Source: Heliocybe sulcata (lineage: Eukaryota; Basidiomycota; Agaricomycetes; Gloeophyllales; Gloeophyllaceae). Taken from it: a DNA stretch of 64,000 nt. Position 1 is the first letter of the stretch; the number at the start of each line of letters is the position of its first letter. Positions 16,820-64,000 of the stretch are shown here, piece by piece. The stretch is from assembly GCA_004369045.1 (NCBI GenBank), contig ML213517.1, positions 68,757 to 132,756 on the forward strand, in the 5' to 3' direction. The notes beneath the pieces are model-generated. The model was given only the letters and a program-made list of their open reading frames with translations, had not been told where the DNA came from and searched no databases. Position numbers and translations under genes: made by a program.

Positions 16820-17609
16820 GCTTCAGCGATGAAGGGAACGGCCGGCTCTCGTGAACGTCTGGCTGCTTGGGATTATATGCCACTCGAACTCGGTATACTC
16901 ACCCTTTCTTATCATATCAGCAGGTCCATGATGCATATCACGTAGCTGAGTAGCTTATCTGCCTTGAATGTAACTTCGAATCCCGGGTGAATTCCAAGGA
17001 GCCTCAGTTCTCATGGTCACGAGAAGATATAGCACAATCGAGAGTCGCAAATCCGTTCCGACGCTCAGAATAGTCAGAGGACACTGTATGCTGAGCGCTG
17101 ACAGTTGGGTGAGAGTCTTCTCTTCGCGAGAAAATGGAGCGAAGTGCAGAACAGCATACGAGAGGGACAAGAACGTTGGCGTATAGGACGTACTTTCTGT
17201 TCCGCAATGTAACTCATGTACAGACAAAGATGGCATCAACCTTACAGTGTTCAGCGCTCAGGAGGCAGTAGATATATAACTTCAGGGAATACGCCGGCGC
17301 CTATTATATGCAGTCCGGCCCGGGTGCCGCGCCCAACCAACTAGAGGCTTCAGACGGTCCTGTCGGTCGTTCAGGCTGTATACCACACTACTTATAAATG
17401 CTATAGACTTCTGGGCGTAAAGCTAAAGTCCAGAATGATGATTTTACCCCTTCGTTGAAGAGCAACATCGATGATCCGGTGTTAATGGTTGTGCGGATGA
17501 TGTACCTCGCAAAACGCAGATACCGACACACTTGTGAGCGCTTATATTACTGAGAACTATCGCCCAGCAGTGCGTAAGGTACGCTCGTGCACCCAAAGTA
17601 CTGGATCCT
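16820..17609. other. Intergenic, M20 promoter and SDR1 3' flank
   Basis: Both neighbours are on the minus strand, so this interval should hold the M20 gene promoter and the SDR1 3' UTR. Short ORFs in it lack motifs. A tRNA-like B-box near 16975 was examined and dismissed. Confidence 0.55.
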
Positions 17610-18597
17610 TCACCACGGAATGGCCTCGCCCTGGTTATTGAAGAATTTGCCCGACCGCTCCGGGCCTGCATCTGGGATCCAGCTCAACAAATTGTTAATA
17701 CACTCCGTTGCATCGATATGTGCACCAGGGCCACCCATGTCTAGATAAGTGCCGTTACAGATGACGGATGTTCAAATCCGAGCATGGAAGAGTGGCACTT
17801 ACCCGTCTTGACCCAACCAGGATCGACGACGAATGCAATTAAGTCCGGTCTTTGCGTCGCTTGCTTATACGTCTGTGAAGATCAGACGACCATTCGATGC
17901 GACAGCCAGTCAGTCAATTAAGCTTACACACCGATCCCGATCAATGGAAGCTCGCCACGTACCAGCATGTTCAACGCCGTCTTGCTGATACTGTACGTCG
18001 CATTCTTGTCACCAAAGTTCAAGCCAATGGATGCGAGGCCACTCGTGACATTCACGATGACACGTTTCTTGCTCTTCTCGAGGTAAGGAAGGAGCGCCTG
18101 AGCGAGGAGTGCTGGACCGAGGACGTTGACTTGCATAGATTGCATGAAGCCGGAAGGAGAAAAGGAGAAGGCTTTGTCGTCGCCTTCCGTCTAGATGCGT
18201 TGATCACATGAGCCACCATTCTCGTGCTCGTGAATGCGGGACTTACAATGGCTGCCATATTAACAAGGTAGTCGATCGGGCGGTCCTTCAGGAAGTTCTT
18301 TATCGTCTCTGGGACAGCCTTGATCGCTTCCTCGTCGCTCGTATCGAGTGTGACGATGAGGAGCTCTGCCTTCGCGGACTTCTCTACCTGCTGGAGCTTG
18401 GGAGAGCCCTCTGGGTTGCGGCATGCTGCGATGACGACGTTCGAGCTCGATGCACTGAGGTGTTTGACGAGTGCGAAACCGATGCCACGGGAGGCTCTGA
18501 CATTGGCATAGAAAATTAACTACTCTTCTACAATAAGTCATCGAAAGAGGACTACTTACGCGGTAACGAACCAGACGGACTGTTCGCTAGCGGGCAT
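17610..18597 (-). CDS. Short-chain dehydrogenase/reductase, copy 1 (SDR1)
   Basis: This is a classical SDR of about 250 residues, an NAD(P)-dependent oxidoreductase of unknown substrate. It starts MPASEQSVWFVTA and has four or five exons. The nucleotide-binding motif reads TAASRGIG, with Ala at the first Gly of the usual TGxxxGIG. NMAA replaces the usual NNAG, and the catalytic YxxxK is present in YSISKTALNML. Further on are VVDPGWVKT, a DMGGPGA segment near the C-terminus and the end GEAIPW. It is roughly 84% identical by eye to SDR2 at 32397-33354. It lies just outside the outer end of the left inverted-repeat arm and is co-directional with that arm's genes. All key residues other than the noted Gly are intact. 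Confidence 0.9.
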
Positions 18598-18678
18598 GTT
18601 TGTATATCCAAGGTGCTGAGAGCGAGCGAACAACGTTGACGCGGGCGGACGTCAGTGAGTCGGTACACCCCATGGCAT

Positions 18679-18812
18679 CCATTATATACGCCCGGGTTGG
18701 AGTCGCTTGCATGACAAAGCCTGGGTTTCCGGTTCGGTCGCTGGACTGTCCCTTAGCCTCGCTGAATACTCGGAAGGTCAACCCGACGTTCAAAGATAGT
18801 ACCAACATATCG
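18679..18812 (-). promoter_or_regulatory. SDR1 promoter, conserved with SDR2
   Basis: Read on the minus strand, this region contains CTTCCGAGTATTCAGCGAGG, then CTTTGTCATGCA, then a TATA element (TATATAATGG) about 90 bp before the ATG. The same blocks in the same order precede SDR2. The duplication therefore included the promoter, and these blocks have stayed conserved while intervening bases drifted. Confidence 0.7.
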
Positions 18813-19155
18813 GCCTCCGCACAGCTTCCAATCACCCTCTATCTTACGATGCTCCACTAAGAATAGCATAGCAGGAGGACGCACTGACGTGGGTGGCTGG
18901 TTGACCAGCATTCTACCTCTTCGCACTTCCCACGTAGCTATCAGGTCCCAGTTTGTTTGTCAAGCAAGGAGGAGCAAGAAGAAGAACAATTAGCGAGTGC
19001 ATACTTCGTACCTGTAATATTGACCCTCGTGCGTGTATCTGGGGAGGATTCCAGGATGAGAGTCACGTATAGAAAGGCGGAAGAGCTTGCCCACCCTATT
19101 CCTGTTTCGTACTGCCCCGGGAGCCTAGCGAGGCTCATAGTGTGGGACGTTTAGG

Positions 19156-22100
19156 TGAGAAATGCATGCAGTTGAGCGAACAAGGACGATCACGTGCATT
19201 GGTGATATACTGGCAGTATATGATGTTACTACCCTTCGTCCAGGACCGTCGCCCCAGCCGTATAACCTGGTTGACGGGCTCATAACCAAGCACTGAGTAT
19301 TACAATACAAAATGGAAGGTATAAATACACCGGATGCTTCCTAGATACAGTCAAAAAGAACTGCAAACATAATACAGGCCATACCAGTCCTCCGCGGATA
19401 ACACGTACGGCAGGGGATACGTAGCAGCAGTGACACAAGTAGCGAGCGGGAGATGGAAGCATCATGTCTGGGAGGTCGAAACATAGGTCCTGATTCAACC
19501 TGAGGACGCGCGGAGGAAGTCCCCACAACCTATCTGTCTCGAGACTTCGAGTGAGACCCTTTCACCCTCTTCACCTTTCTAGCCGCCACAGACACATTAG
19601 CTGCCGGCTCCGGCTCCGGCTCCTGCGAAGCAGAACGCTTGTTGCTGTGGACGGAGCTGTAGGAGTACGAAGTAGAATGGAATCTGGGGTTGGCCGACGC
19701 TACTGGTTCATGGTGCTGCTCCACCGGCTCAGGCGAAGCTCGGCCGCTGGCAGGAGCAGATTCTTCGGCCGTATCTTGTATTCCCTCCTGGTTGCCACCA
19801 AGAGCAAGGTCGCGCTCTTCGTTAGACTCCTCGATGGCATGATTAGAAGGGCCAGCAACCTCGACATGGTCTCGAGGGTCGGTGGATTGCGACATTTCCC
19901 TCATAATGGCTGCGTCTATCATATTCAGGATCTTCATATAATGCCTCTTGGCCGCAATCGTCAACCAGTCGTTACAATCTTCAGCTGAGGCGATAAGATA
20001 TTCATCAGAACGCGGAACAGACGACTCGAATTTAATTGCTACTCACTGGAATCAAGCTCTGGCAGGGGTACGCTACTGAGCGTTTCTTTCATTTGATTGT
20101 CCGTCATCTCTTTGAGCATCTTTCGCTCGTCATGAGACAGCTCTGCGGTCAATGCCTCTCGCTCCACGGAGAGATGATTGACGCGGGGAATTGCGATTTT
20201 CGCGAAAAACGACTGCAATTCGGCCAATAGTAACCGCGCACTCATTGGCCAGCCTGATAATTTCCAATTCAAGCTCGTGTCCAGCAAGAAACTCTGTTTG
20301 CTATCTCTGGCCGCCTTCGCGTCTCCTGATTCCCAGGGCACCAGAAAGTCAGGTAACTCAGCCACAGGCTTGCCAGGGCCCTTAAAAGCGAAGAGCAGCC
20401 AAGCAAACACGTAGAAGCACGATTCCATCTCATCAAAGTGGTCGTGAGTACCCAGATTGTGGAGCACCTTCATCGATTGGAAGGCTCGAGTCCCCTGTCT
20501 CCAGTGTCAGACATGTTCGCAATCATGTTCGTAAGAGTCAACTCACCGTACGAAAATCCGTCTTAACCTGACTCTACTCCCTGTCCAGGAATATGGCCAT
20601 GTCGAAATCGATCAGTATACCCCAGCCGCCGTCTTCGTTTCCTTCTCTGTGATCTAAGAGGATGTTGCGCAAACTGATGTCCCGGTGCACGATACCAATT
20701 CGCAGTAACTCCATACTCGCTGACAGCCCGTCATTCTCCTGTCAAAATCTGCCATCATGTAAGGTGACGTACCCGAAACAGCGTCGCGAAAGGCGCGATA
20801 CAGTTGCAACACCGACCGGAACTCCTCCAATGGTGATCCATAGTGAGTCTGCATAGTATAGTAGTACTCGCGGTCGTGAAATTTCTCCTTGCGATCGAGA
20901 CCGACAACGCCGTGACGGAGATCCGACAGCTTCTGAATGACTCGATAGCTGTCCATGGTGCCGACGTGTTTGAGAGGCGGATTTGCACTCTTGATACGTT
21001 CAAGGTGCTCCCACTCCCCCACACGATCGATGGTTTTCCATGAAAACTTGAGCATGTACAGATGCCCAAGGTCGTCTTCGACCGTCCAGCAAGTTGTCCC
21101 CCTTCCGCGAATTGTGCGCCTGCGGAACGGACTGTCTGGGTTTATGATCTTGTAACGCTTGGGCTCATCCGCCTGCGGATCCTCGAAGTAACGCTCGTCC
21201 CCGATCCAGCGGATACGAGTATCGAAACCTATCTGGCTTTCGTCCTCTGAGGCGATCGCAAGGATGATCTGGACGAACGTGACAGCTGAAGTCCCGATAT
21301 CATACCATTGAGAGTACAGGACTCCGCCGCGGTCGAATTGGTACACCCGGACCCTCTTCTCCGTAAGGAGGAGAGCGTACACAAACCGCCTGTTGGGCTG
21401 CCGGACAAAGCACTCCCGCGCGTAGACCGCGAGCTGCCTCTCGTCCCGCGCAGTTTTCAGGCCTCTCTCGATCTTCATCTCAACAGGAGCAGCGCAGTGC
21501 TCGTACGTCGGTCTATCAGGGAAGTCTTGTAACTTGTTGAAGGCCTCGCCGTGTCCGACGAGGAGGATGTCAGGCCTCGTCGAGACCTTCTTCTCGTAGG
21601 CCTCATGCTGGTGGGAAATCACCCTGTTATAGGCGAGGCTGGCGCGCCGCTTCTTAATATGAAAGTAGTTCAGAACAGCGTTCATAATGTTGATCATCGG
21701 AAGGTACACGGTCGTGTCTTCGGCCGCCGGATTGTCGGGCAACGCGACCCACTTCATCGTAGCGTTGTTATACCCGGAATACCACCTCAGGAACTCGTTG
21801 ATCCTGGACGTCCTTGGCATACCGGGCGCCTTGCGAAAGTCCTTCGTGATCGCTCCCTCATCTTCCATCCACGCCCCGTCGAGCTCGAGCCCCACCGCCT
21901 CCTGCAGTTCGCTGGCTTTCTTCGTTTTATAAGAGTCGGAGCTATGTTTATACGGTGTTCCCTGGACCGCTGCTTTATGAAGAGGGGCGTGGCGTGGTGT
22001 CTGAGGGAGTGGCGTCGGATTCTCGGAGCGATAGGCGGGCACACGAATCTCCCCAGAGGTGTAAGCAATGCCCTCGCGCAAGCCCCCACCGGCACCGTCC

Positions 22101-25049
22101 GATGCGCCCATCGGCGCTACGGCGACAGGATCGGGCTGCTTGGATCGTTTCTGTCTGCGATCATTCTTGTGCTTCGGGGGTGGTTTGCTGGTGGAGTCCA
22201 TTGTGAGCGAGCGAGACATGTTATGAGAACCGCTTGAATCTAACGTAGGAGCCGCGTCTCGCAGTCGGGTCTTGGACTCGACGGCGACTGGGACAGCCCT
22301 TCCTTTGCCTTTCCGATTTGGCGCGCTTTCAGGCGAGGGACTTGTGCTGCGCTCTGCGGTGGGCGCTGGGGTCGGAGAAGGAGCTTTCTCTTGCACGAGC
22401 TCGACCTCCTCCTGATCCGAAGCGTCTGCTGGAGAACCTGCGGCGGATGGGCCACTGTCTTGGTCGGACATATTGGGTCGTGGTGGTAAGAGAGCAAGAG
22501 ACGAAGGCTCGCTTACCGCAAGTCCAACATGAACCGTGCCACGGAACACGCGCTGCACCTAATCGAGAGAACAATGCGCGGATCTAGCCGCGATCGAAAA
22601 ACACGATTCAAAACGGTCACGTGTGCCACGGTCACAGTCACAATACAGGCGCGTTGACCGTCGCGGCCACATTTACTGGAAATCGGATGGGCGCCTGCCA
22701 TTCCACTCCAAATTAGAAGTGGTAAATTGTTAGTTTTAGTTTACACAGTATTCAAGGCGGCGCTGTAGTCCTAGTAGATGATATACCGATTGGGGAAAGG
22801 AGCTTACGCTATGGAGACCCGATGACGGTAGGGCAGATCGCATAGACATCTCCCTGAGTAAGCAGGTCAAAATTGAGACGTAGATATATATTTTATAGTC
22901 CTCCCGTCTTCATACATCAAGCATATAAAGGGCGGACCCGTAATAGAAACTATACCTATACTAGAATCTCAGGCCGTCCAACACCCTGCCACTCGCGCCA
23001 ACAAGGACACCTCCAACCCACCGCCCTACCCGTCTCCATTGGTGCCTTCCTGCCTCGTCTGGCACCGCGCGCACGCCGTACACGGCCATCGCCACGCCCA
23101 GCACTAGCACCGCGCCTGCTACCATGTGCCGTCTCTCCACAACCACTCCCGCAAACCGTACACTTCTCAGGGGCTTCCTTAGTCGTCTCCTCTTCCTCCT
23201 GCTCTTTTCTTCCTTCTCTTCGTCCGACTCAGGTGAGGGTGGCGGTTCAGGGAGGACAACAAGCTCCGGGCGGAGGACCATCGCTTCTGCTTCGTCGTCG
23301 TCTGGAAGCTGAGCTGGGACGTCGGACCATGTGCTCACGACAGAATAGGGACCAAGAGTGGTCTTGACACCGAGTGAGGGATGCGTAGGTGGATACAGAG
23401 AGTAAAGCGCATCGGCCTGTGCGAGGAGGAAGGTTAAAGACACACGGGCTTTGCGGACACGGTGGGTGGATGCAGAGGAGACGGGAGAGGGCGGGGCTGA
23501 CTCTGCCAGATGAGAGTGTTCCGCAGGCGGAGAAACGAGGACCTCCTCGCAAAGCTGTGTTTCCGTGTCTAATTGGGCAGCTTTGTCGCTCAAGTCTTCC
23601 GCAGTATCAAGGTCCTCCCGCGATGCAGACCCATCTACTTCCGTCTCTTCCACAGGTTCCATCTTCCCGTGTGGCTCCTCTTCTTTCATAACAGCAGTAG
23701 CAGTGTCTTTCGGGTCTTCTGGTGGTGGAGAGCTAGCGACTAGCGTCTCTTCGCGAGAGAATTCCGTCTCCGCTTCAGATGACTGCTCGTGCAGCGTCTC
23801 TTCAGGATCAATGTCCATACATTCTCCCCTGTCGGCCACTATGAACTCCTCCTCATCAGACACCGCCGTCTCAACCGTCGGTATCTGTTCCACAGACGGG
23901 ACATTATCCTCCTCGGCCGTCCCTTCCTGTTCGCTCGTCTCCGTAGCGGCCTCGTCAAGGTCAATCGCGGTCGCAGATCGAGTTTCATCTGGGACAGACT
24001 CTTCGTCCGCCTCTTGCTGCTTCGGTCCCGGTTGCGGCTCGGATTGATCATCCCACTCCTCGTACATATCCGGCAAACTGCTCAGTAAAGAATGTAGCAT
24101 TCCGTCTTCGCCTTCCTGTTCTAGCCAAAAGACCTCTTCCTTCCTTGAAAGCAGGACCTATCCGAAGACATCATCAGTAATCAGCCCAACCCCGATTGAA
24201 CACAAGGGGAGAGGGAAGACGCACAGCTGCGGCGAGATACACCGAAGCTATTGGCGGGCGTGTGAGGAGATAGTCGAAGATATGCTGGATGACTGGAAGG
24301 GTTGGGACATCATGCGAGAAGAGGGTCAGCAGGTTGGAGAGGGCGAAGTAGGGGAGAGGGGAGTTGCTGCATACGGTGGGGTTAGGAATGGGAGAAAGCG
24401 AGAAAGGGGAGTATGATACATACTTGTCTAGGATAGAAGCGTATTTGGGGTCAGCCAGGTGAAGGAGACGCTGCAATATCCGTAATTGCCCGAGCACTGG
24501 CTCAAGGCTTGAGCCCATCGAGTCGCGCAGGCGGTGGAGGCTCAGCTTCTCGGCGCATACGAATTGCAGTTCTTTTGGCAAAGTGAGGAACAAGACCGTG
24601 ACAATATCATGATAGCCCTTGTGTAACACGATCAGGCGGGAGTGCTCGCTACATTTGAAGCCTTCGTACCTGGAAATAGCTCAGCTTCCTCCGTTTCCGG
24701 AAGATGGACACGAGCAATTCATGGAGGTCTCCTTGAAGAGCTTCCCGGTTCTTCAGGTTGGCATTCTCTGCGGTCTCTACGAGAATCGTAAGACTCGGTT
24801 ATGCACCGTGGTCGGAGGTGACAGTTCACCTACTGGGTACAGGACGAAGCTGCGCTCGGTGTCGAGCTTGATCTGCCGCTCGTCTTGGTGTACCTCGGAA
24901 TCAGGTTCGGAGGCGGAGGCAAAGGATGTAGTATTAACGCCCAGGAGTTTGGGCCTAGCACAAATAATGAGATACAAGTGTTTACTTCGCTCGGCATGCT
25001 AGAAATACCATATTGTTACCCGCTCCTCTCCAAACCCTCCAGGTCCAAC
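19156..25049. repeat. Left arm of a ~5.9 kb inverted repeat
   Basis: The reverse complement of this arm matches 33679-39620. In the inner part, paired coordinates sum to a constant 58728 from 25049 down to about 22380, so there are no indels, and every segment compared there is identical, coding or not. Across the kinase gene the arms diverge clearly, with indels. Around 19280-19530 they return to about 99% identity, then fade out near 19156. A roughly 50 bp segment near 39515-39570 is present only in the right arm. Confidence 0.93.
19530..22471 (-). pseudogene. FunK1 fungal kinase, copy 1, interrupted
   Basis: This is a FunK1-family protein kinase, a fungal-specific expansion common in Agaricomycetes. 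The start MSDQDSGPSAAGSP matches copy 2. The disordered N-terminus is followed by HPDILLVGHG-type and QLAVYARECF segments, then IVHRDIS (catalytic loop) and LIDFDMA (metal-binding motif with DFD in place of DFG). Thirteen bases' worth of codons later, where copy 2 has Ala615 in LDREASQV, this copy has TAG at 20574-20576. The frame downstream stays open, with recognisable C-lobe text (THDHFDEMESCFYVF) and a Ser/Glu-rich basic tail ending SKSRDR. A product would stop in the activation segment and lack the C-lobe and tail. The stop is thus probably recent, or the truncated product has some role. The C-lobe is only about 65% identical to copy 2. Confidence 0.85.
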
Positions 25050-25136
25050 AGACAGCGTGCGGAGAGTCTCCCAATCAACCTGTTCCTGACCTCCTGATTT
25101 CTCTTGCGAGCCAGTAGAGTCCAGTTCTGTTGACAT
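22961..25136 (-). CDS. TBC-domain RabGAP, TBC1D20/Gyp8-like
   Basis: This gene encodes a Rab GTPase-activating protein of the TBC1D20/Gyp8 type, which acts on ER-to-Golgi Rab1/Ypt1 in characterised members. It starts MSTELDSTGSQ. Exon joins give RTLSVGPGGFGEERVTIWPK, then HQDERQIKLDTERSFVLYPV, KRRKLSYFQGYHDIVTVLF and LPYFALSNLLTLFSHDV. The C-terminal part of the TBC domain reads FDYLLTRPPIASVYLAAAV. A long acidic region follows, then a hydrophobic segment (VAGAVLVLGVAMAVYGV), the likely ER membrane anchor seen in this family. The first 29 codons lie outside the inverted repeat and the rest lies within its left arm. The gene shares a 293 bp divergent upstream region with the UGGT gene. It is the only copy with a normal start. 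Confidence 0.88.
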
Positions 25137-25429
25137 CGTCAAACGGATACTAACGGCCAAGAGAGCGTCCGAAACAGCAGGTGCATTCGCCTGGCAGAAC
25201 AGTGGTGGTGTGAACGGGCGTGTATACGTAGCCAGTGTAGAACGACTACGAAGTGACAACGATTACTTCGCGAGTTAGACGCCCATAATGTACGTGTCAA
25301 GCCACTTCACTCCATGATTCAAGCTCAAGTGCTGCACTAAGCTCTCAGATTTGCCTGCGATTTCACCTGCAGTTACATAGCTTGGGATCTTACTGACAAC
25401 GGCTCTCTGAGGTTTCCTTTTGGGCCGCC
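25137..25429. promoter_or_regulatory. Divergent promoter region of RabGAP and UGGT genes
   Basis: Only 293 bp separate the ATGs of two divergent genes whose products both act in the early secretory pathway. A shared bidirectional promoter is the natural reading. I did not identify a TATA box or an unfolded-protein-response element. Confidence 0.55.
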
Positions 25430-28400
25430 ATGAAGCCTGCCTCGGCCTTATGGACGGTAGCGGCCTGTTTGACCTCTGTATTGGCGGTATTGAGTCCGCC
25501 TGTGAAGGTCTCACTAAGGACATCATGGTCTGCGCCTTCTATACTTCTAGAGATTATGTACGTATTCACTTCGCTTGCGCTGGATGCTCCCTGAAGCCCT
25601 TGATATCGCTCTAGAGAGACGGTGTCCCTGGAAAACCCCAACGCCTTCTTCCCTTTGCTAGACGTCCTTACAAACGCCAAAATTTCGTCGCTTCCATCCG
25701 ATGCAACGCCTCAGGCGACATACGAATATGTCCTTTCGACCGCTATTTCCGAAGGCCTGCTCCTGGACCCTTCATCAAAAGCAATTGTCCAGATGAACAC
25801 AGCGCTGCACGCGGCTACGCCCAAAATTGAAGCAGCATACCAATACTACCTTGACCGCCACGGGAAGGAGAAGGCTGACACGGACAATGATGGATGCCGG
25901 TCCTGGGTCGATTGGCATAGTCAAAAAGTGTACGACGTAGAGACATTGGCCCACCTCGCGGGGCACGAAACTATCGATTCCTCCCACCCCATGAACGAGA
26001 CCACTGCGCCACTGTGAGTTCAGCGTCTGAATCATACGACATGGTACGTGTCTGATGTGCCTTTCTTACTCGCGCGGGCAGGGCTCGCCCTAAACTCCTG
26101 CCCTTCGACCACGTCCACCCCGCTCGTTCACAGTTGCGAGACCTCCCTCCGCATACAGCTATTTTCTATGCATCTCCGATCACTGATAACTTCAGGGAGC
26201 TGCACGAGTACCTGCTTTCCCTCGCCAGGAAGCCCAACGCGGCGAACGTGGAATACGTGTTCCGCCACATGCCTCCCTGCGAGTCTCGGCAGGCAAAGGA
26301 AATGAGTTACTTGTCTGGATACGGCGTAGCTATGGACTTGAAGAAGATGGATTATTTGGCCTTGGATGACAGGCGCGCCACTGCTCATAGCCAAAATGAA
26401 GTTAGTGATATTGAGCGTGAAAAGGAGGGCGCTATTGCGGATGCTATTGCTGCAGACCCTATAATCACCCTACTGCAACACCACCCAGAAAACACCACGG
26501 CAGACGCCAATGCCCCGCTGAACGAGGACGAGCTTCTTGGTATGCCCTTCTCCTCACCCGTTCCTTGCTGACTATTCATCTACACCTCACCAGAGATCGG
26601 TGTGAAAGCGACCCAACTGATCATGTCCTCCCCAAATCCTCTCGCTACCCTGCAGCACCTCTCGCAGAACTTCCCAAAATACGCTACCGCTCTCGCAAGG
26701 CGGGTAGTTGTGAACGAGAGTCTGCTGGAGGAGGTCGGGAATAACCAGTATAAAGCCCAGCCCGGTATTAGTGCCGTGTGGCTAAATGGCAATCCTGTTT
26801 CGGAAGTTGACTTGAATCCTTTTGGGTGAGTCCGCTCTCTTCCTCCAACCCGCGAGATGACTGGACTTCACTTCTAATTTTATATGGTAGATTGTTGAAA
26901 CTTGTCCGGAAAGAACGCACCCTCGTTGCTTCGCTCACCTCGCTTGGTCTCACACCCCCACAAGTGGTGGACTTGCTCACGCACCGCGCGATCGCGGCTG
27001 CCCAAGGGGGCGGGGACATCCTCGATGGAATGGTGGATGCGAGCGATAGGAGCGAAGGTGGGGATGTAGTGGTTTGGTTTAATGATTTGGAGAAGGATGC
27101 AAGGTACGCAAGGTGGAGCCCAGTCCTTCGTACTGTAAGTGTCTTATCCTTACCTGTGTTATGCTCGTTGTTCGTCACGATCCTATCTAATGGCGTGCAG
27201 CTCCTTCGGCCCATCTACCCCGGCTCGTACCACAACCTCAAACTCAACCTCTTCAACGTGGTCCTCGTTTTGGATCTCTCCCGAACATCCAGCCTGCACT
27301 TCCTTACTTCCACCATATCTCAAATCATACAGCGCAGCTTTCCCTTTCGGTTCGGTGTAGTACCGATCGTAGAGGGAGATGATGGTGAGTAGGATCTCCG
27401 TGATATGCGTTAACGTCGGAGATGCTGACGGTGAGGCACGGTGGTACGTTGAACTTGGATTGGCGGATAATCACAACGAAGGAATGAGAATGGCGAAGTT
27501 GGTGTATTGGTGCGCGAAGACGTATGGGAGGGCCGGAACAATGAAGTTCCTTAAAAACGTATGTGGTTTGTGTTTACAGAGCTTTCTTACATGTTGGGTG
27601 GCTGGCGACTGACCTTGCTTTATGCAGGTTGTGCAACTTCAGACAGCGCCGATCGTCGACTGGCGTACAGTGCGCACAGCGTTTGAAAGTTTCGTGGCGA
27701 ATGAGGAGCCCCCTACAGAAGAGTTCAGTGCCCCAGATTTGGACGCGATGGTGGGAAGCGAGAGCGGCAGTGAGCTGGAGATGAATGTGAAGGGTGTGGC
27801 ACAGTATGCTAAGCGCCTTGGCGCGACTCTCGCGGCGAGCCCATCGGGGCATGCGTTCGTGAATGGAAAGCATTATGATTTGGACGATGTGAGCATAAGT
27901 CCGCTCGTTCGACTGCGCGCACAGTAGCGTGGGCACCGACTGAAGTACTCGGATAGGAGTTCTTGCGGAATATGCAGGTGGAAATCAGCGCGCAGTTGCA
28001 GCATATACAGGAAAAGGCGTGTCTCCACTCCGCACTCCCATCTTAATCGCTCCTAAAATTATTGATTGCACAGGTGTATATGGGTGAGATCAGAGATGAA
28101 GACGCTGACAAAGTCTCCACCTACTTCTACGACTTACCTAGCACTGCGAAGCGTCGTCACCCCCTCATTGTTCCTTCGTCTTCTGGGAGCTTGCAGATTC
28201 GCAGCTTGCCAGAGGTATTTAGCAGGGTTGGGAGGGGCCTGGGCGTCGAGGGGTATCTGCTTCCGCGTGAGCGTGCCGGGTGTTCTGGATGTTGGAGATT
28301 TGATTGACCAAGGAGCTTGGGTTGGTAGCGGGTGATAGGCATCTGCCGTTGACTACATATGCTGTTGCGGATTTTGATACGCCCGAGGGGTTGTGGTTGG

Positions 28401-31400
28401 TCAAGGAGTTGCTGGAGACTATGGTATGGCTTTGCTTGTGCTTCCAGAAGCAGGAGATGTCTCACGATTGTTGAGCAGGACGAGGAATCCCTCTCCCGTA
28501 TCACGTTCTCTCACAATCCTATCATCCCCAGCACCCCCTCATGGACCGAGTCCCCGGTATCCACCCTCTTCGCTCATCTGGTCCAGAACGGTCTGTTGGA
28601 CAAGGCTACTCCAGAGAGGCTCTTGAGGATCCTTGGTTTTGGGGCTGCTGCCGCTCAGAATGGACACCCGCAAATCGTTATATCCAACGAAGACGATCTG
28701 CTTAGTGAACTCATTGGTGGAGTGGATGCGGAGGTGACTGCGCAGACGTACGATGAGTATCTTGGGTTCGGGCAGTTGTTTGCGAAAGAGCTCGGATTGA
28801 AGCCTGGGGAGCAGGCATTGGTGGTGAACGGCCGGGTGCGTCCGAAATGCATGCTCGCTTGCTTTTGGTGGACTGACGATGGCACAGATTATAGGTCCAA
28901 TGAAGAATGCCCAGTTCCTGGCTGGCGATCTTAGGGAGCTCTATACATATGAGATGCGTAAGCGGGTCGAGCCTGTCTTCCAGGCATTGCAAGAGATCGT
29001 GCCGGATATGGCTACTTTTGATAGGTAGGCTAATACTGCCAATTAATACCTACGTATTTCTGAAGAACGTTATACAGAGGTACCTTCGCGGACGTCGTAT
29101 CCCTTTCATCGTCCGTGGTGTCGGCTATGCAGATCCCGGATCCGAGCGAAGCAGGCCTGTTCAATGCTGCGTATAAGCCTCGTACGCGCAATTATAGACT
29201 GATGGAAGGCAATTTTACGTGAGTGATCGCGATAAGTTGTACTCCTCGGCAGTGACTTACTCAGAATAGTCGTTTTGAGGTGGGCGAGCTCGGATCTGCG
29301 CTTCACCAGTTCGGAGTTATATTGGACCCGCTGAGTGAGGCGGCTCAGAAGTGGTCGAGTCTGTTTGAGGTTGGCAGCGTTAAGTTTGCGTTGATATTTG
29401 CTTATCCTCTCGCTCTAGTGGTTGTCGAATGCGGGAAACGTCTATTTCGAGATCTACCTGCATCCCGCAGGTTATCGTGAAGTCCGATCATGATGCCAGG
29501 ACTCTCGTTCTCAAGCTGATTCAACTGTCGTAGATTCCTCTGAAGCGGTTCTACCGTTATAACCTGCTGCCAAAACTCTCGTTCGATGCCGATGGGTGAG
29601 CAACCATCACGTCTGCAATCATGCAGTCCCTTACAACATCCATCCAGGAAGGAACTGCAGTCCACGACCGTCTTCCAGAATCTTCCATTAGAGCCCATTT
29701 ATACCCTAGGGATGGATGCTCCACCGGCTTGGTTGGTCAGGCCGCGAGAAGCTCAACACGACCTGGACAATATCCAGCTAGGAATTATCACAGCTAAGGA
29801 ATGGTTGCTGGGAGTAGAAGCAGTCTTCGATCTGGACTTCCTTGTGATCGAAGGACACGCACGCGACACAATGACCAACGCCCCGCCGAGGGGTCTCCAG
29901 CTGCAGCTGACTTCTGGTACAGGCAACGCGACTATCCCGGTAGCGGATACACTGGTAGTAGCGAACCTGGGATACTCGCAGTTCCGGGCGAAGCCGGGTG
30001 TCTTCCAGCTGGAGATCCGGGACAGCCGGGGAAGAGAGATCTTCGAGACAGAAAGTGTTGGGAACGAGGGATGGGACAGCCCTTCTGTAAAGGAAGTGGG
30101 GAATGAGGTCGCGTTGACTAGCTTCGAGGGTTTGACATTGTATCCGCGATTCGCGAGGAAACCTGGTATGGAGCGGGCGGATGTTCTCGAAGAGTTGGAT
30201 GACTCTTCGTCTATCAGCTCTGTTGCTGAGGAGGTGCTCCACAAGGCTTGGTCAATGTGAGTACATTTTTGCCTGTTTCCTGATGACCAGGGTCATCATG
30301 AACCTCCCGTTCAGGGTTACTTCCTTCTTTGCGCCTAAAGCGGAGGCCCCGAAGTCACAAGAATTACAGACTCGGCAGGCGGAGATCAATATCTTCACTG
30401 TAGCGTCCGGGCTTCTGTACGAGGCAAGCTTAGGAACTTTGGTCGTACCGAGATCGAATGGCTCACATAGTGTCCTTTCAGAGATTCTTGTCCATCATGG
30501 TCCTCAGTGTTCTTCGTAACACAAATAGCACCGTCAAATTCTGGTTCATAGAGAACTTCTTGTCACCCTCCTTCCTAGTGCGTACTTCGCCTTTTCACCA
30601 CCCGAGGCCAACACGCCATAACCGACTGAGGATGTAGGAGTTTATCCCTCACTTCGCACAAGCATATAACTTCCAATATGAGCTGGTGACCTACAAATGG
30701 CCGACTTGGCTCAGAGCTCAGAAGGAGAAACAGCGCATCATCTGGGCATACAAGATCCTGTTCCTCGATGTACTCTTCCCCATGGACCTGAAGAAGGTCA
30801 TCTTTGTCGACGCAGACCAGATTGTTCGGGCGGACCTCAAAGAACTCGTAGACTTGGACTTGCATGGGGCTCCATATGGGTATACGCCTATGGGAGATGA
30901 TAATGTTGATATGGAAGGGTTCAGGTTCTGGAAGACCGGATATTGGAAGGAGTTCTTGCAAGGGAGGCCATACCATATCAGGTTTGTTCGTTCGATTGGC
31001 ATTCGGAGTCCGATCTCATTGAGCGAACAGTGCGCTGTATGTCGTGGATCTGGTCCGCTTCCGCCAGGTACGTCGCCCGTAAGTGCTGAATGTGGTCCAA
31101 TATTGATAGAGAGTCTATGTAGATGGCTGCTGGGGTGAGATCCTGGACGTATACTCCTTGGTCACAACTAATCATCACATGCAGGACATCCTGCGAGGCC
31201 ACTATCAACAACTCTCTGCCGATCCTGGCTCGCTAGCAAACTTGGATCAAGATCTGCCTAATAACTTACAGACGCAGGTTCCAATAGTACGTCAACAGTG
31301 CTGTCCAGGCTCTTCAGCGTCTGAGTGTTGTTTTCAGTTCTCGTTGGACGAAGATTGGCTATGGGTACGTGTTGCCTAACTCTTTCCTGGGATTGCGCTT

Positions 31401-31855
31401 AGTTGGGCAAACTTTGCCAGTGTGAAACTTGGTGTAGGTATCTCTGTGTGAAGCACAATGCCGGATGTCTTACCTCTACTTGCTCGCAGGCAGCAAAGAT
31501 CGTTTACCCAGAGCAAAGACTATCGATCTATGCCAAAATCCTCTTACGGTCTGTACTTGCGCACATAGCATTGCGATTGGTCGATCTCACAAATGTATCG
31601 CATCGACAGAAAGAGCCTAAGCTCGCCAGAGCTCGTCAGATCCCTGAGTGGGAAGAGTATGACTCTGAGATCTCGAGATTCGCGCGAAAGCTCGCTGAAG
31701 ATGGGCTTATACATTCTGAAATTACTGCAGCTGGTGCCGATGTGCTGGCGAGTGTGGCTGCAGGTGCGGCAGCCCCTGCAGTAGGTACTGCTGATATTCC
31801 CGAGGAAAGATTGGATGCGGAGTCGGAGGGTTCCAGGGTTCATGAAGAACTCTAG
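25430..31855 (+). CDS. UDP-glucose:glycoprotein glucosyltransferase (UGGT)
   Basis: UGGT is the ER folding sensor that re-glucosylates misfolded N-glycoproteins so they re-enter the calnexin cycle. The ATG at 25430 opens a signal peptide, [20 protein letters not shown] short first intron (donor GTACGT) then restores frame into [15 protein letters not shown]. Thioredoxin-like and beta-sandwich regions follow over many exons, including [20 protein letters not shown]. The C-terminal GT24 catalytic domain shows FENFLSP-like text, [32 protein letters not shown] (DxD motif), [23 protein letters not shown] and, across the last intron, [20 protein letters not shown]. The protein ends HEEL, a KDEL/HDEL-like ER retention signal. 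The gene lies inside the spacer of the inverted repeat. Splice junctions checked at both ends are intact; internal ones were only sampled. Confidence 0.92.
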
Positions 31856-32180
31856 CTTCCCGGACTGTCTGATGTTGGACTTCTGGAATTTGTATTGTCT
31901 AGGGAAAGTATCTAATGCGGCAGTCGAACGTAACCAATCTTTCCTCGTTCTGCCTGCTACTGCTCAAGGAGACATATAGAAGCTGTGTTGCTGAATTCCA
32001 AGTGTGGCATGTCCATTCTTCTTCGCCGGTGGCCACTTGATGTGAAGAGTCAACCGACTCCGAGTCCTACTATTCCGCGATCATCGAGTGCATGTTCATC
32101 CCCCGCACCAGTGCCTACTCCTTGTATACTATTCTTGGCGGGAGCATCACAAGACGCGGAATGAGGGGAAGCGGTGGGCC
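31856..32180. other. Intergenic, UGGT 3' flank
   Basis: This 325 bp follows the UGGT stop and precedes the conserved SDR2 promoter block. I see no gene in it. Confidence 0.55.
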
Positions 32181-32325
32181 AATATGATAGGATTATCTTT
32201 GAAACGTCGGGCTGACCTTCCGAGAATTCAGCGAGGCTAACAGGCAGTCGAACTATCGTATCGGCCACTCAGACTTTGTCATGCATCAAAGGGACGATGT
32301 CAAGAGGGGCATATATAATGGCCAC
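32181..32325 (+). promoter_or_regulatory. SDR2 promoter, conserved with SDR1
   Basis: The region shows ATTATCTTTGAAACGTCGGG, then CTTCCGAGAATTCAGCGAGG, then ACTTTGTCATGCA and a TATA element (ATATATAATGG) at about 32311, 80 bp before the ATG. The order matches the SDR1 upstream region. Confidence 0.7.
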
Positions 32326-32396
32326 CAAAGGGCGTTGCGACGCATCGACGTTCACCCGTCTTTACACCGTTTAACGCAGAGTCTCAGTTAACCGAG

Positions 32397-33354
32397 ATGC
32401 CCTCCACTGACCAATCTGTGTGGTTCATCACCGCGTGAGTGAATGTATTATTGCACGAGGCAGTGATTGACACCTCACTCTGACTTCAGAGCCTCGCGAG
32501 GCATCGGCCTTGCACTCGTCACACAGCTCAGTGCATCGACCTCAAACGTCGTCATTGCAGCATGCCGCAATCCAGAAGGTTCCCCAAAACTTCAGCAGGT
32601 AGAGAAGACCGCGAAAGCAGAGCTACACATCGTCACGCTCGACACAGGCGACGAGGAAGCGATCAAGGCTATCCCAGAAGCGATAAAAGACTTCCTGAAG
32701 GACCGGCCGATTGACTATCTTGTTAACATGGCCGCTCGTGTAAGTTCATATGTTCCACAAGTGTGAGATGGATGGCTAAGGTGATCAACGCATGCAGACG
32801 GAAGGCAACGACCAAGCCTTTGCATTCTCCTCTTCAGGGTTCATGCATACCATGCAAGTCAATGTCCTCGGCCCCGCTCTGCTGGCGCAAGCCCTCCTTC
32901 CCTTTCTCGAGAGGAGCAAGAAACGGGTGATCATAAACGTGACGAGCGCTCTTGCCTCTGTGAGCCTAAACATCGGTGCCAAGAGCGCGACGTACAGTAT
33001 CAGCAAGACGGCGTTGAACATGCTGGTACGTTGGGAGCTTCCCATCGACCCGAATGTTTTGCTGAGCTTGACGGGCTGTCATGTCGAATGATGATATTAG
33101 ACGTATAAGCAAGCGACACAGAGGCCGGATTTGATTGCGTTCGTCGTCGACCCAGGTTGGGTCAAGACTGGTAAGCGCCATCTCCAGCGGGTTTGAGTCA
33201 ATCATAATGCGTGCCATATGTAGAAATGGGCGGCCCTGGCGCACTGATCGAGACCACAGAGTCTATCAACAATTTGCTCAGCTGGATACCCGACGCGGGC
33301 CAGGAGCGTTCGGGAAAGTTCTTCAATAACAAAGGCCAGCCACTTCCATGGTGA
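32397..33354 (+). CDS. Short-chain dehydrogenase/reductase, copy 2 (SDR2)
   Basis: This is a paralogue of SDR1 with the same exon layout. It starts MPSTDQSVWFITA and ends GQPLPW. The cofactor motif is TAASRGIG and the catalytic motif is YSISKTALNML. The segments SRGIGLALVTQLSAS, FMHTMQVNVLGPALLAQALL and VVDPGWVKT are present, followed by EMGGPGALIETTE. Introns are short, and the first uses GTGAGT. No break is seen. The gene lies in the inverted-repeat spacer, immediately upstream of and co-directional with the right arm. SDR1, in contrast, lies outside the left arm and downstream of its genes. Substrate unknown. Confidence 0.9.
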
Positions 33355-33678
33355 AGCTGGCACCTGCGGGATGACACGCGCTATCGTGCAGTCTCGAGCT
33401 GTACGTGTATCTGAAAGCTTGCGACATCTAGTAAGGAGACGCTGCGGGTAGGTCGGATCTACATACGTCCTGTGCAGAGCGTGGAATATGGTTTAAAAAT
33501 CCGTACGCGGTGGTGTGCTCGCAGTAAAAGATCTTGCGCAGAAACTGCTCGATCATTAGTACGAAACCGGATCCGAGTCAGATTGTAAGAGGACTCCAGC
33601 AGGTAATCTGAGAGCGTTCGAGAAGACTACGAAGCAGGAATTGTACAGTCCTCCGCGCTTGCATGGAAACATCCGCCA
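33355..33678. other. SDR2 3' flank up to the arm junction
   Basis: This 324 bp separates the SDR2 stop from the abrupt start of the right arm. It shows no clear similarity to the SDR1 3' flank or to the RabGAP upstream region. No in-frame ATG is evident that could give the truncated RabGAP copy a new start. Confidence 0.5.
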
Positions 33679-35767
33679 GTTGGACCTGGAGGGTTTGGAG
33701 AGGAGCGGGTAACAATATGGTATTTCTAGCATGCCGAGCGAAGTAAACACTTGTATCTCATTATTTGTGCTAGGCCCAAACTCCTGGGCGTTAATACTAC
33801 ATCCTTTGCCTCCGCCTCCGAACCTGATTCCGAGGTACACCAAGACGAGCGGCAGATCAAGCTCGACACCGAGCGCAGCTTCGTCCTGTACCCAGTAGGT
33901 GAACTGTCACCTCCGACCACGGTGCATAACCGAGTCTTACGATTCTCGTAGAGACCGCAGAGAATGCCAACCTGAAGAACCGGGAAGCTCTTCAAGGAGA
34001 CCTCCATGAATTGCTCGTGTCCATCTTCCGGAAACGGAGGAAGCTGAGCTATTTCCAGGTACGAAGGCTTCAAATGTAGCGAGCACTCCCGCCTGATCGT
34101 GTTACACAAGGGCTATCATGATATTGTCACGGTCTTGTTCCTCACTTTGCCAAAAGAACTGCAATTCGTATGCGCCGAGAAGCTGAGCCTCCACCGCCTG
34201 CGCGACTCGATGGGCTCAAGCCTTGAGCCAGTGCTCGGGCAATTACGGATATTGCAGCGTCTCCTTCACCTGGCTGACCCCAAATACGCTTCTATCCTAG
34301 ACAAGTATGTATCATACTCCCCTTTCTCGCTTTCTCCCATTCCTAACCCCACCGTATGCAGCAACTCCCCTCTCCCCTACTTCGCCCTCTCCAACCTGCT
34401 GACCCTCTTCTCGCATGATGTCCCAACCCTTCCAGTCATCCAGCATATCTTCGACTATCTCCTCACACGCCCGCCAATAGCTTCGGTGTATCTCGCCGCA
34501 GCTGTGCGTCTTCCCTCTCCCCTTGTGTTCAATCGGGGTTGGGCTGATTACTGATGATGTCTTCGGATAGGTCCTGCTTTCAAGGAAGGAAGAGGTCTTT
34601 TGGCTAGAACAGGAAGGCGAAGACGGAATGCTACATTCTTTACTGAGCAGTTTGCCGGATATGTACGAGGAGTGGGATGATCAATCCGAGCCGCAACCGG
34701 GACCGAAGCAGCAAGAGGCGGACGAAGAGTCTGTCCCAGATGAAACTCGATCTGCGACCGCGATTGACCTTGACGAGGCCGCTACGGAGACGAGCGAACA
34801 GGAAGGGACGGCCGAGGAGGATAATGTCCCGTCTGTGGAACAGATACCGACGGTTGAGACGGCGGTGTCTGATGAGGAGGAGTTCATAGTGGCCGACAGG
34901 GGAGAATGTATGGACATTGATCCTGAAGAGACGCTGCACGAGCAGTCATCTGAAGCGGAGACGGAATTCTCTCGCGAAGAGACGCTAGTCGCTAGCTCTC
35001 CACCACCAGAAGACCCGAAAGACACTGCTACTGCTGTTATGAAAGAAGAGGAGCCACACGGGAAGATGGAACCTGTGGAAGAGACGGAAGTAGATGGGTC
35101 TGCATCGCGGGAGGACCTTGATACTGCGGAAGACTTGAGCGACAAAGCTGCCCAATTAGACACGGAAACACAGCTTTGCGAGGAGGTCCTCGTTTCTCCG
35201 CCTGCGGAACACTCTCATCTGGCAGAGTCAGCCCCGCCCTCTCCCGTCTCCTCTGCATCCACCCACCGTGTCCGCAAAGCCCGTGTGTCTTTAACCTTCC
35301 TCCTCGCACAGGCCGATGCGCTTTACTCTCTGTATCCACCTACGCATCCCTCACTCGGTGTCAAGACCACTCTTGGTCCCTATTCTGTCGTGAGCACATG
35401 GTCCGACGTCCCAGCTCAGCTTCCAGACGACGACGAAGCAGAAGCGATGGTCCTCCGCCCGGAGCTTGTTGTCCTCCCTGAACCGCCACCCTCACCTGAG
35501 TCGGACGAAGAGAAGGAAGAAAAGAGCAGGAGGAAGAGGAGACGACTAAGGAAGCCCCTGAGAAGTGTACGGTTTGCGGGAGTGGTTGTGGAGAGACGGC
35601 ACATGGTAGCAGGCGCGGTGCTAGTGCTGGGCGTGGCGATGGCCGTGTACGGCGTGCGCGCGGTGCCAGACGAGGCAGGAAGGCACCAATGGAGACGGGT
35701 AGGGCGGTGGGTTGGAGGTGTCCTTGTTGGCGCGAGTGGCAGGGTGTTGGACGGCCTGAGATTCTAG
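33679..35767 (+). pseudogene. 5'-truncated RabGAP (TBC1D20/Gyp8-like) copy
   Basis: This copy equals the left-arm RabGAP gene from codon 30 to the stop, including introns, with no difference found by eye. The promoter and the first 29 codons (MSTELDSTGSQ onward) are missing and are replaced by unrelated SDR2 3' flank. The remaining reading frame is undamaged and the TBC domain is nearly complete. An internal or read-through start could in principle yield protein, but I see no good start. Total identity with the functional copy implies very recent duplication or ongoing gene conversion. Confidence 0.85.
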
Positions 35768-36256
35768 TATAGGTATAGTTTCTATTACGGGTCCGCCCTT
35801 TATATGCTTGATGTATGAAGACGGGAGGACTATAAAATATATATCTACGTCTCAATTTTGACCTGCTTACTCAGGGAGATGTCTATGCGATCTGCCCTAC
35901 CGTCATCGGGTCTCCATAGCGTAAGCTCCTTTCCCCAATCGGTATATCATCTACTAGGACTACAGCGCCGCCTTGAATACTGTGTAAACTAAAACTAACA
36001 ATTTACCACTTCTAATTTGGAGTGGAATGGCAGGCGCCCATCCGATTTCCAGTAAATGTGGCCGCGACGGTCAACGCGCCTGTATTGTGACTGTGACCGT
36101 GGCACACGTGACCGTTTTGAATCGTGTTTTTCGATCGCGGCTAGATCCGCGCATTGTTCTCTCGATTAGGTGCAGCGCGTGTTCCGTGGCACGGTTCATG
36201 TTGGACTTGCGGTAAGCGAGCCTTCGTCTCTTGCTCTCTTACCACCACGACCCAAT

Positions 36257-39190
36257 ATGTCCGACCAAGACAGTGGCCCATCCGCCGCAGGTTCTCCAGC
36301 AGACGCTTCGGATCAGGAGGAGGTCGAGCTCGTGCAAGAGAAAGCTCCTTCTCCGATCCCAGCGCCCACCGCAGAGCGCAGCGCGAGTCCCTCGCCTTCC
36401 GTTGCTGAAAGCGTGCAAGGTCGGAAGGGCAAGGGACGGGCTGTCTCATTCGCTGTCGAGTCCCAGACCCGACCGCGACACGCGGCTCCTACGTTAGACT
36501 CAAGCGGTTCTCATATCATGTCTCGCTCGCTCACAATGGACTCCACGAGCAAGCCTCCCCCGAAATATAAGTATGGTCGCAGAAACAGGGGATCCAAGCT
36601 GGCCAATTCTGTCGCCATAGGGCCGAAGGGCGCGTCGGACGGCGAGGGCTTGCGCGAGGGGATTGCCTACAGCTCTGGGGAGGTCATTGTGCCCGGCTAT
36701 CACTCCGAGAATCCGACGCAGCTCCCTAAGACGCCACGGCAAGCGCCTCTTCACAAAGCAGCGGTCCAGGAAACACCGTATAAACATAGTTCTGACTCTT
36801 ATAAAACGGAGAACGCCGAGCAGCTGCAGAAGGCGGTGGGGCTCGAGCTGGACGGGACGTGGATGGAAGATGAGGGGGCGATTATGGAGGACTTTCACAG
36901 TGCGCCCGGTACGCCAGGGATGTCCAGGATCAGCGACTTCCTGAGCTGGTATTCCGGGTATAACAACGCTACGAAGAAGTGGGTGGCGATGCCCGACAAC
37001 CCGGCGGATGAAGATGCGACCGTGTACCTTCCGATGATCAACATTATGAACGCTATTCTAGGCTACTTTCGTCTTAAAAAGCGGCGCGCCGACCTCACCT
37101 ATAACATGTATATTCCCCATCAGCATGAGGCCTACGAGAAGAAGGTCTCGACGAAGCCTGACATCCTCCTCGTCGGACACGGAGACGCCTTCAGCAAGTT
37201 ACAAGGCTTCCCTGATAAACCAACATACGAGCACTGCGCTGCTCCTGTTGAGATGAAACTCGAGAGAAACCTGAGTATTGCGAACGATGAGAAGCAGCTC
37301 GCAGTCTACGCGCGGGAGTGCTTTGTTCAGCAGCCCAACAGGCGGTTTGTGTACGCTCTCCTCCTTACGGAGAAGAGGGTCCGGGTGTACCAATTCGACC
37401 GCGGCGGAGTCCTCTACTCGCAATGGTATGATATCGGGACTTCAGCCATCACATTTGTCCAGATCATCCTTGCAATCGCCTCAGAGGACGAAAACCAGAT
37501 AGGTTTCGATACTCGTATCCGCTGGGTCGGGGAAGAGCGTTACTTCGAGGATCCGCAGGCGGATGAGCCCAAGCGTTACAAGATCATAAACCCAGACAGT
37601 CCATTCCGCAGGCGCACAATTCGCGGAAGGGGGACAACATGCTGGAAGGTCGTAGACGACCTCGGGCATCTGTACATGCTCAAGTTTTCATGGAAAACCA
37701 TCGATCGCGTGGGGGAGTGGGAGCACCTCGAACGTATCAAGAATGCAAATCCGCCTCTCAAACATGTCGGCACCATGGACAGCTACCGAGTCATTCAGAA
37801 GCTGTCGGATCTCCGTCACGGCGTTGTCCTTCTCGATCGCAAGAAAAATTTTCACGACCGCGAGTACTACTACACTCTTCAGACTCACTACGGATCGCCA
37901 CTGGAGAAGTTCCGGTCGGTGTTACAACTGTATCGAGCCTTTCGCGACGCTGTTTCTGGTACGTCACCTTACATGATCGCAGATTCTGGCAGGAGAATGA
38001 CGGGCTTTAAGCGAGTATGGAGCTACTGCAAATTGGTATCGTACATCGCGACATCAGTTCGCGCAACATCCTCTTAGATCGCAGAGAAGGAACGAAAGGC
38101 GGCGGCTGGGGTGTACTGATCGATTTCGACATGGCAATATTCCTGGACAGAGAGGCGAGTCAGGTTAGGACAGATTTTCGTACGGTGAGTTTACTCTTAC
38201 AAACGTGGTTTGTGAGCACGTCTGACATCAGAAACAGGGTACTCGAGCCTTCCAATCGTTGAAGGTGCTTCACGGTCTGGGTACTCACGACCACCTCGAC
38301 GAACTGGAGTCGTGCTTTTACGTCTTTTCTTGGGTGCTCTTCACCTTCCAAGGTCCTGGCGCTCCTGTCGCGAAGTTGCCAGACTTTCTGGAATCATGGG
38401 AAAGCGGCGACCCCAAGATCGCTAGCGCCGGCAAGCGGAGTTTCCTGATTGAACGGAGTCTGAGACTGAAACTGTCGGGTTGGCCGGCGAGCGCGCGACT
38501 ACTGTTCTCCGGACTGCAGTCGCTGTTTGCACAAATCGCCATTCCGCGCGTGACGCATCTCTTGGAAGAGCAAGAGTTTGAGAAGATGAATCTGTCCGAG
38601 GACGAGAAGAACGCACTCAGAGAGGAGGCCGAAAATGTCATCAAAGATGCACTCGGTACCCTGCCTGAGGTTGATTCCAGTGAGTACCGTTCACATCAGT
38701 CGGCTTGCTTCCCCTTTCTGATAGAGACCCTATCGCTTCAGCTAATGACTGTAATGACTGGCTGACGGTCGAGGCGAAGAGGCATTATTTGAAGATCCTC
38801 AATTTGATAGACACAGCCATTATGAGGGAAATGTCGCAGTCCACCGACCCTCGAGACCACGTCGAGGTCGCTGGCCCGTCTAATTATACTATCGAGGAGT
38901 CTGACGAAGAGCGCGACCTTGCTCCTGGTAGCACCCAGGAGGGAATACAAGATACGGCCGAAGAATCTGCTCCTGCCAGCGGCCGAGCTTCGCCTGAGCC
39001 GGTGGAGCAGCACCATGAACCAGTAGCGTCGGCCAACCCAAGATCCCGTTCTACTTCGTACTCTTACAGCTCCGTCCACAGCAACAAGCGTTCTGCTTCG
39101 CAGGAGCCGGAGCCGGCAGCTAATGTGTCTGTGGCGGCTAGAAAGGTGAAGAGGGTGAAAGGGTCTCACTCGAAGTCTCGAGACAGATAG
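36257..39190 (+). CDS. FunK1 fungal kinase, copy 2, intact
   Basis: Four exons (36257-37958, 38012-38184, 38238-38679, 38742-39190) give 921 residues in frame. The first ~100 residues are Ser/Pro-rich and disordered. A FunK1 N-terminal region follows, with YLPMINIMNAILGYF, KPDILLVGHGDAF, QLAVYARECFVQQPNRRFVY and VRVYQFDRGGVLYSQWYDIG. The kinase core shows KRYKIINPDSPFRRR, a lysine-bearing strand LYMLKFSWKTID, HRDIS at 578-582 with NILL after it, and DFDMA at 604-608. The GTRAFQSL segment begins the C-lobe, which has HDHLDELESCFYVFSW. The tail is Ser/Glu-rich, repeats PEP-type residues and ends in a basic SKSRDR. FunK1 substrates are unknown. A 5' UTR intron is likely upstream of the ATG. This copy is presumably the active one of the pair. 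Confidence 0.9.
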
Positions 39191-39620
39191 GTTGTGGGGA
39201 CTTCCTCCGCGCGTCCTCAGGTTGAATCAGGACCTATGTTTCGACCTCCCAGACATGATGCTTCCATCTCCCGCTCGCTACTTGTGTCACTGCTGCTACG
39301 TATCCCCTGCCGTACGTGTTATCCGTGGAGGACTGGTATGGCCTGTATTATGTTTGCAGTTCTTTTTGACTGTATCTAGGAAGCGTCCGGTGTATTTATA
39401 CCTTCCATTTTGTATTGTAATACTCAGTGCTTGGTTATGAGCCCGTCAACCAGGCCATGCGGCTGGGGCGGCGGTCCTGGACGAAGGGTAGTAACATACT
39501 GCCAGTATATCGCTTAATAAGTCTAGTAGTGGTGGCTATTTTGCGATATTTGATATTAACACCAATGCACGTGATGGTCCTCGTTCGCTCAACGTTTCAA
39601 CGCCAGCCTGCATTTCTCTC

Positions 39621-63938: not shown

Positions 63939-64000
63939 NNNNNNNNNNNNNNNNNNNNNNNNNNNNNNNNNNNNNNNNNNNNNNNNNNNNNNNNNNNNNN
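63939..64000. other. Assembly gap (run of N)
   Basis: The last 62 positions are N. The gap truncates the trehalose-phosphatase gene. Confidence 1.

Follow-up and report, generated by a model that had tools for sequence, protein, structure and literature searches.

A mosaic of old and recent tracts in an inverted FunK1 kinase pair of Heliocybe sulcata points to patchy ectopic gene conversion

The window analyzed here, a stretch of 64,000 nt, lies within contig C15 (781,007 bases) of the 31.6 Mb genome of Heliocybe sulcata, a wood-rotting mushroom. Domain matches and gene models yielded the following gene order:

17608..18890, minus strand: SDR1, short-chain dehydrogenase gene, outside arm A
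19533..22471, minus strand: FunK1-A (NCBI OE88DRAFT_1663180; public model mapped by script), exons 22471-20773, 20719-20621, 20484-20047 and 19984-19533 in the public model
22961..25136, minus strand: TBC-A, complete TBC1D20/Gyp8-like gene (hand model, 628 aa, six exons)
25604..31855 (approximate extent), plus strand: glycoprotein glucosyltransferase-like gene in the spacer (Thioredoxin_12 and Glyco_transf_24 matches, ORFs)
32109..33356, plus strand: SDR2, just inside arm B
33679..35767, plus strand: TBC-B, 5′-truncated copy (NCBI OE88DRAFT_1663187, "601 aa, partial"), beginning at the junction
36257..39187, plus strand: FunK1-B (NCBI OE88DRAFT_1663188), exons 36257-37958, 38012-38184, 38238-38679 and 38742-39187
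40754..42361, plus strand: HET-domain (heterokaryon incompatibility) gene, directly adjoining FunK1-B (domain match)

Both kinases score above the cut-off for the Pkinase_fungal domain (PF17667) and hence belong to FunK1; they point away from each other, with ~14 kb between their start codons. The spacer gene is presumably, by its domain make-up, a UGGT. SDR1 and SDR2 are inverted relative to one another and 74% alike, each being the sole genome match found for the other. As they sit on opposite sides of their arms, the two SDR genes were not duplicated with the kinases as a mirror unit. The contig also carries an 80-N run (C15:132695-132774), probably a scaffold gap, the start of which occupies window positions 63939-64000 and which extends past the window end.

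Aligning the window to itself with BLASTN revealed one long inverted pair, 19204-25049 versus 39511-33679, at 93.1% identity. Its parts are:

19171..25049 (main alignment 19204-25049), minus strand: arm A
33679..39593 (main alignment 33679-39511), plus strand: arm B
22372..25049, minus strand: identical inner block of arm A (kinase codons 1-33, upstream region and TBC gene body)
33679..36356, plus strand: identical inner block of arm B, with 0 differences from arm A
20000..20399, minus strand: trough of arm A (kinase C-lobe), 63-67% nucleotide identity to B
38333..38726, plus strand: trough of arm B
19266..19791, minus strand: outer near-identical tract of arm A (kinase tail and 3′ flank), 98.8% identical to arm B
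38935..39454, plus strand: outer near-identical tract of arm B
19171-19207 / 39593-39557, inverted: outlying 37-bp patch at 92%, a weak extension of the outer edge

Over the inner block (22372-25049 / 36356-33679), introns and upstream region included, none of 2,678 bases differs, whereas the longest identical run obtained by placing the 419 differing columns at random (2,000 placings) was 170. The block thus combines the two features expected of a gene-conversion tract, namely identity far beyond chance and homogenization of synonymous and non-coding sites. Most of the layout drawn in the initial annotation was reproduced: the arms are alike at both edges (identical inner 2,678 bp, 98.8% at the outer edge) around a divergent kinase middle, paired coordinates in the inner block sum to 58728 with 0/2,678 differences, and divergence sets in abruptly near kinase codon 34, with the first difference at 22371 falling in that very codon. 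The arm alignment with sliding identity and synonymous profiles, which had been proposed as a check, returned non-uniform divergence with the expected hump. Only the two-step outline of the middle (85%, then 65%, with 90% in the tail) did not hold, as 50-residue windows resolve its divergence into several layers.

Amino-acid identity between FunK1-A and FunK1-B in these windows is 62-82% at residues 51-350, 86-96% at residues 351-600 and 60-66% at residues 651-800, followed by 88-100%. Synonymous divergence (dS) is 0.03 in codons 1-50 and 0.07-0.34 in codons 51-650, rises to 1.59 and 1.42 in codons 651-750—nearly the distance of either kinase to a third paralog, C14—and falls again to 0.44 in codons 751-800 and then to 0.16, 0.05 and 0. 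To correct for local constraint, we divided A-B divergence by A/B-C14 divergence; the quotient ranges from 0.03 to 0.93 along the gene, and its variance of 0.062 lies far above the codon shuffles (maximum 0.024 in 2,000), so that varying constraint does not explain the A-B profile. Nor is the trough simply a fast-evolving segment, since A and B are nearly as distant from each other there as from C14. Judged by a dN/dS of ~0.15-0.23, the trough core (codons 651-750) is under purifying selection. Across codons 751-800 dN/dS reaches ~0.5, and on these two sets of values we rejected diversifying selection for the trough; elsewhere, codons 101-150 and 201-300 show 0.8-0.9.

Against the FunK1 relatives compared, A and B were reciprocally each other's best match in all five larger segments tested. 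Neither the FunK1 loci compared nor the protein matches listed contained a donor for the kinase middle; C14, considered as a donor for the trough, was dismissed with neither A nor B clearly nearer to it there. At residues 101-150, B is 71% identical to C14 and only 62% to A, a closeness that two-way conversion alone does not explain. Judged by their sequence profile, the two kinase genes are mosaics in which no fewer than three classes of divergence can be told apart.

FunK1-A additionally carries a premature stop:

20574..20576, minus strand: in-frame TAG of FunK1-A, in the activation segment, 3′ of the DFD motif

The public model skips the TAG-bearing stretch and thereby loses the DFD; with either gene model, the encoded kinase is probably inactive. 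Amino-acid changes specific to A and to B are similarly frequent (42 vs. 30, p = 0.19), which speaks against a long-dead pseudogene and makes the stop look recent, although it may also be a sequencing error.

The inner end of the repeat falls within the TBC gene. Compared with the publicly deposited partial protein, our hand model of TBC-A has a two-residue difference at one splice, and its relatives (284 proteins at E ≤ 1e-20) include, among the 120 whose names were listed, mushroom entries annotated as TBC1 domain family member 20 and as gyp8. Arm A, read on the minus strand, runs past 25049 into TBC exon 1. The homology of arm B ends inside that exon, its first 29 codons and the upstream region being gone, and no in-frame ATG occurs between an upstream stop at 33604 and the junction. 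The TBC 5′ end is single-copy in the genome, at either inner edge the tested flank segments are unique except for the repeat itself, and a genome search found no third copy of the 2,678-bp block. Since TBC-B is truncated, a third copy of the block is absent and the TBC 5′ end is single, the fragment was evidently copied from the glucosyltransferase-facing side. One boundary of the block (22371) lies in kinase homology and the other (33679) in TBC exon 1 and unique flank, as expected of a one-ended event. If the identical arms later crossed over, 25050-33678 would be inverted and the TBC 5′ end transferred to the opposite arm; the donor is therefore known by its flank, not by its kinase, and a copy direction from A to B is valid only without such a subsequent inversion. 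FunK1-TBC adjacency was not seen in Neolentinus, as judged indirectly from N. lepideus, whose TBC gene and nearest FunK1 relatives are listed on contigs of different length.

The two edges are unequally preserved. Identity of the inner edge extends up to the last homologous base, while the outer edge frays into indels, scattered substitutions and the 37-bp patch, and the 520 bases compared in the outer tract contain six substitutions and one 6-base indel. With 0/2,678 substitutions in the inner versus 6/520 in the outer tract (Fisher p = 1.8e-5), the homogenized edges differ in age. Homogenization of both edges was already proposed in the initial annotation, which missed this age difference and also that the inner block ends inside exon 1 of a TBC gene, only one side of which holds a full copy.

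We propose, with a probability of roughly 0.7, that an old inverted FunK1 pair was patchily overwritten by ectopic conversion and that the newest event was one-ended. The trough dS of 1.4-1.6 implies an old original kinase duplication; the C-lobe trough would retain near-original divergence, most of the remaining sequence having been homogenized later and both gene ends recently, by separate events. The mechanism would be ectopic gene conversion between inverted paralogs. In the newest event, a break at the SDR2-side kinase may have been repaired by invasion of the other kinase's 5′ end, with copying proceeding 2.68 kb through the upstream region into the TBC1D20/Gyp8-like gene and halting in exon 1. 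The copied end would then have been joined to the non-homologous flank, through either break-induced replication or synthesis-dependent annealing plus end joining, leaving one complete TBC gene, one 5′-truncated copy and a common upstream sequence for both kinases. The earlier suggestion of uneven divergence by gene conversion, with an old C-lobe difference surviving, is thus borne out by the trough dS, the length of the identical run and the ratio shuffles.

A PF17667 profile search of the genome returned at least 114 matches, counted exon by exon, which were hand-grouped into ~57 loci. A preference for inverted order among FunK1 pairs was not supported, opposite orientation being found in 13 of 21 neighbor pairs <25 kb apart (p = 0.38). 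From this search, two further groups were chosen as close pairs rather than sampled at random. At C6:24001-40000, an inverted FunK1 pair is identical for 1,443 bases spanning the kinase core, and its flanks drop to 55-87%, the opposite of the layout on C15. C35:122001-140000 contains three FunK1 genes, the third of which alternates in its affinity to the other two (K1 and K2). Most of 134489-135675 is 82-95% identical to K2 (one 100-base window, 75%) and 49-78% to K1, whereas 136033-136827 is 83-95% identical to K1 and 59-81% to K2. Neither neighbor is near in between (~135675-136033; 57-77%); past 136827, K1 and K2 alike show 69-78% identity until homology stops. The best split, at 135716, gave a chi-square of 208 versus a maximum of 20 in 500 shuffles, and the third kinase is likely a chimera of relatives of K1 and K2, as far as the identity profile tells. 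Mosaic structure was hence present in 3/3 FunK1 groups inspected, two of them hand-chosen. Further similar FunK1 pairs are mostly on separate contigs. The pairs C27:217773/311720 and C42:90161/C50:25779 agree exactly or almost exactly in their match coordinates, score nearly equally and are possibly recent copies.

Alternative histories have to account for the same edges and the same trough. A single recent duplication of the entire 5.9 kb arm, after which a third FunK1 gene or divergent allele supplied a new middle to one kinase, would fit the near-identity of both edges, the abrupt inner boundary and the greater closeness of B to C14 than to A at residues 101-150. However, a single recent duplication sparing the kinase middle would age both edges alike, and their ages differ (p = 1.8e-5); moreover, A and B are mutual best matches in 5/5 segments, a donor is absent among the loci and proteins compared, and the several divergence levels in the middle make a single tract insufficient. 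We therefore consider this history unlikely. An assembly artefact, in which haplotypes or repeat copies were misjoined or one consensus was written into both arms, is improbable: the 80-N run in the contig and the complete lack of differences in the identical block would be in keeping with it, but window positions 1-63938 are free of N, neither arm edge continues into matching flank, the inner-edge flanks tested are unique, and a divergent middle separates the arms.

The initial annotation had likened the locus to an idiomorph or switching cassette, with alternative kinases held between recombining arms and swapped to alter function. Arms in inverted orientation that agree wholly or almost wholly at their edges and differ in the center do resemble such a device, in which the promoter would lie outside the exchanged part or expressed and silent copies would coexist. 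Here, both kinase start codons lie within the inner block, and the 2.58 kb upstream of them are identical. With both promoters in identical sequence, inversion of the spacer would change neither kinase and only relocate the TBC first exon from one of two identical gene bodies to the other. Together with the purifying dN/dS of ~0.15-0.23 in codons 651-750, the stop in the FunK1-A activation segment and the reversed layout of the C6 pair (identical core, divergent edges), this renders the cassette highly improbable, and we do not retain the idea. Scarcely credible, finally, is uneven constraint or mutation rate acting alone, without conversion; the kinase C-lobe is indeed variable relative to C14 too, but the identity also spans introns, upstream region and 3′ flank, and the heterogeneity remains far beyond shuffles after C14 normalization.

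Patchy conversion of an old inverted pair, our preferred reading, has parallels in known repair systems. Ectopic recombination between inverted repeats in yeast likewise involves closely linked inverted copies with possible inversion of the spacer, as outlined in PMC8748988; unlike that system, the C15 locus consists of natural paralogs with tracts of several ages, one of which extends beyond the shared homology. Break-induced replication and other one-ended repair, in their general description, share with the C15 event homology at one end and copying into unique flank, whereas the C15 tract is short, lies within a chromosome arm and is deduced from sequence alone. FunK1 expansions have been described, in outline, as lineage-specific duplications within a functionally uncharacterized fungal kinase family (PMC3203195, PMC6001611). 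Searching PMC3203195 for the terms gene conversion, nuclease, inverted and chimer- gave no occurrence in the text covered, and literature listings, mostly at the level of titles, showed no link between FunK1 and gene conversion, Spok or chimeras. The best reading of the layout is that known repair processes acted on an expanded gene family.

Within the N-domain of FunK1, we noticed a nuclease-like motif:

37154..37309, plus strand: PD-ExK-QxxxY motif, FunK1-B residues 300-351

P-D, E-x-K and Q-L-A-x-Y are invariant in 9/9 hand-chosen FunK1 N-domains; in an alignment of 24 sequences, counted by eye over rows with letters, D is present in 18/21, (D/E)xK in 20/23 and QxxxY in 17/24. In the C6 and C35 stretches, a loose PD-ExK pattern occurred in scattered frames only and QxxxY gave no match, although the latter pattern lacked a positive control and could be interrupted by introns; these patterns suggest that the motif is not general among FunK1. 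The kinase part weakly matches the Kdo and Bud32 models. No nuclease family was listed in Pfam (E ≤ 5) or NCBIfam scans of FunK1, PF13588 had no match at E ≤ 10 (4/14 control genomes do match), a PDB search returned no nuclease and a single unrelated match at E 1.3, and the best 60 of 320 matches in a further search, IRE1 entries included, all fell on the kinase part. An hhalign comparison of the N-domain with EcoKI-type HsdR was negative, EcoKI HsdR being a weak yardstick since its residues 151-450 lack QxxxY. Profile-level homology to a PD-(D/E)XK nuclease was accordingly not found in the profile and PDB searches or against EcoKI HsdR.

No killing by FunK1 is known to us. The order of PD-(D/E)XK and QxxxY ahead of a kinase recurs in SPOK-type proteins with different spacing. 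The SPOK spore killers are described as combining PD-(D/E)XK and QxxxY motifs with a kinase that shows affinity to eukaryotic-like kinases (PMC6660238), and the Spok family of Podospora is likewise a multicopy fungal family among whose paralogs gene conversion has been reported (PMC6660238 and PMC9972908). SPOK differs in carrying a coiled coil at its N terminus along with a cysteine cluster, and its PD-(D/E)XK spans 219-240 with QxxxY starting 54 residues on (PMC6660238), compared with ~34 and 13 residues in FunK1. That the FunK1 of this clade might be nuclease-kinase fusions acting like SPOK toxin-antidotes, their parts reshuffled by inverted-copy conversion and the patchwork tracing an arms race among selfish or incompatibility genes of mushrooms, appears quite unlikely to us. 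If the nuclease-like motif is real, the FunK1 family would gain a testable function.

The C15 pair illustrates clearly how conversion between inverted paralogs would preserve an old difference and also drag an upstream region and a truncated housekeeping-type gene elsewhere. The mosaics suggest that the FunK1 kinases, a large family, evolve partly by segmental shuffling.
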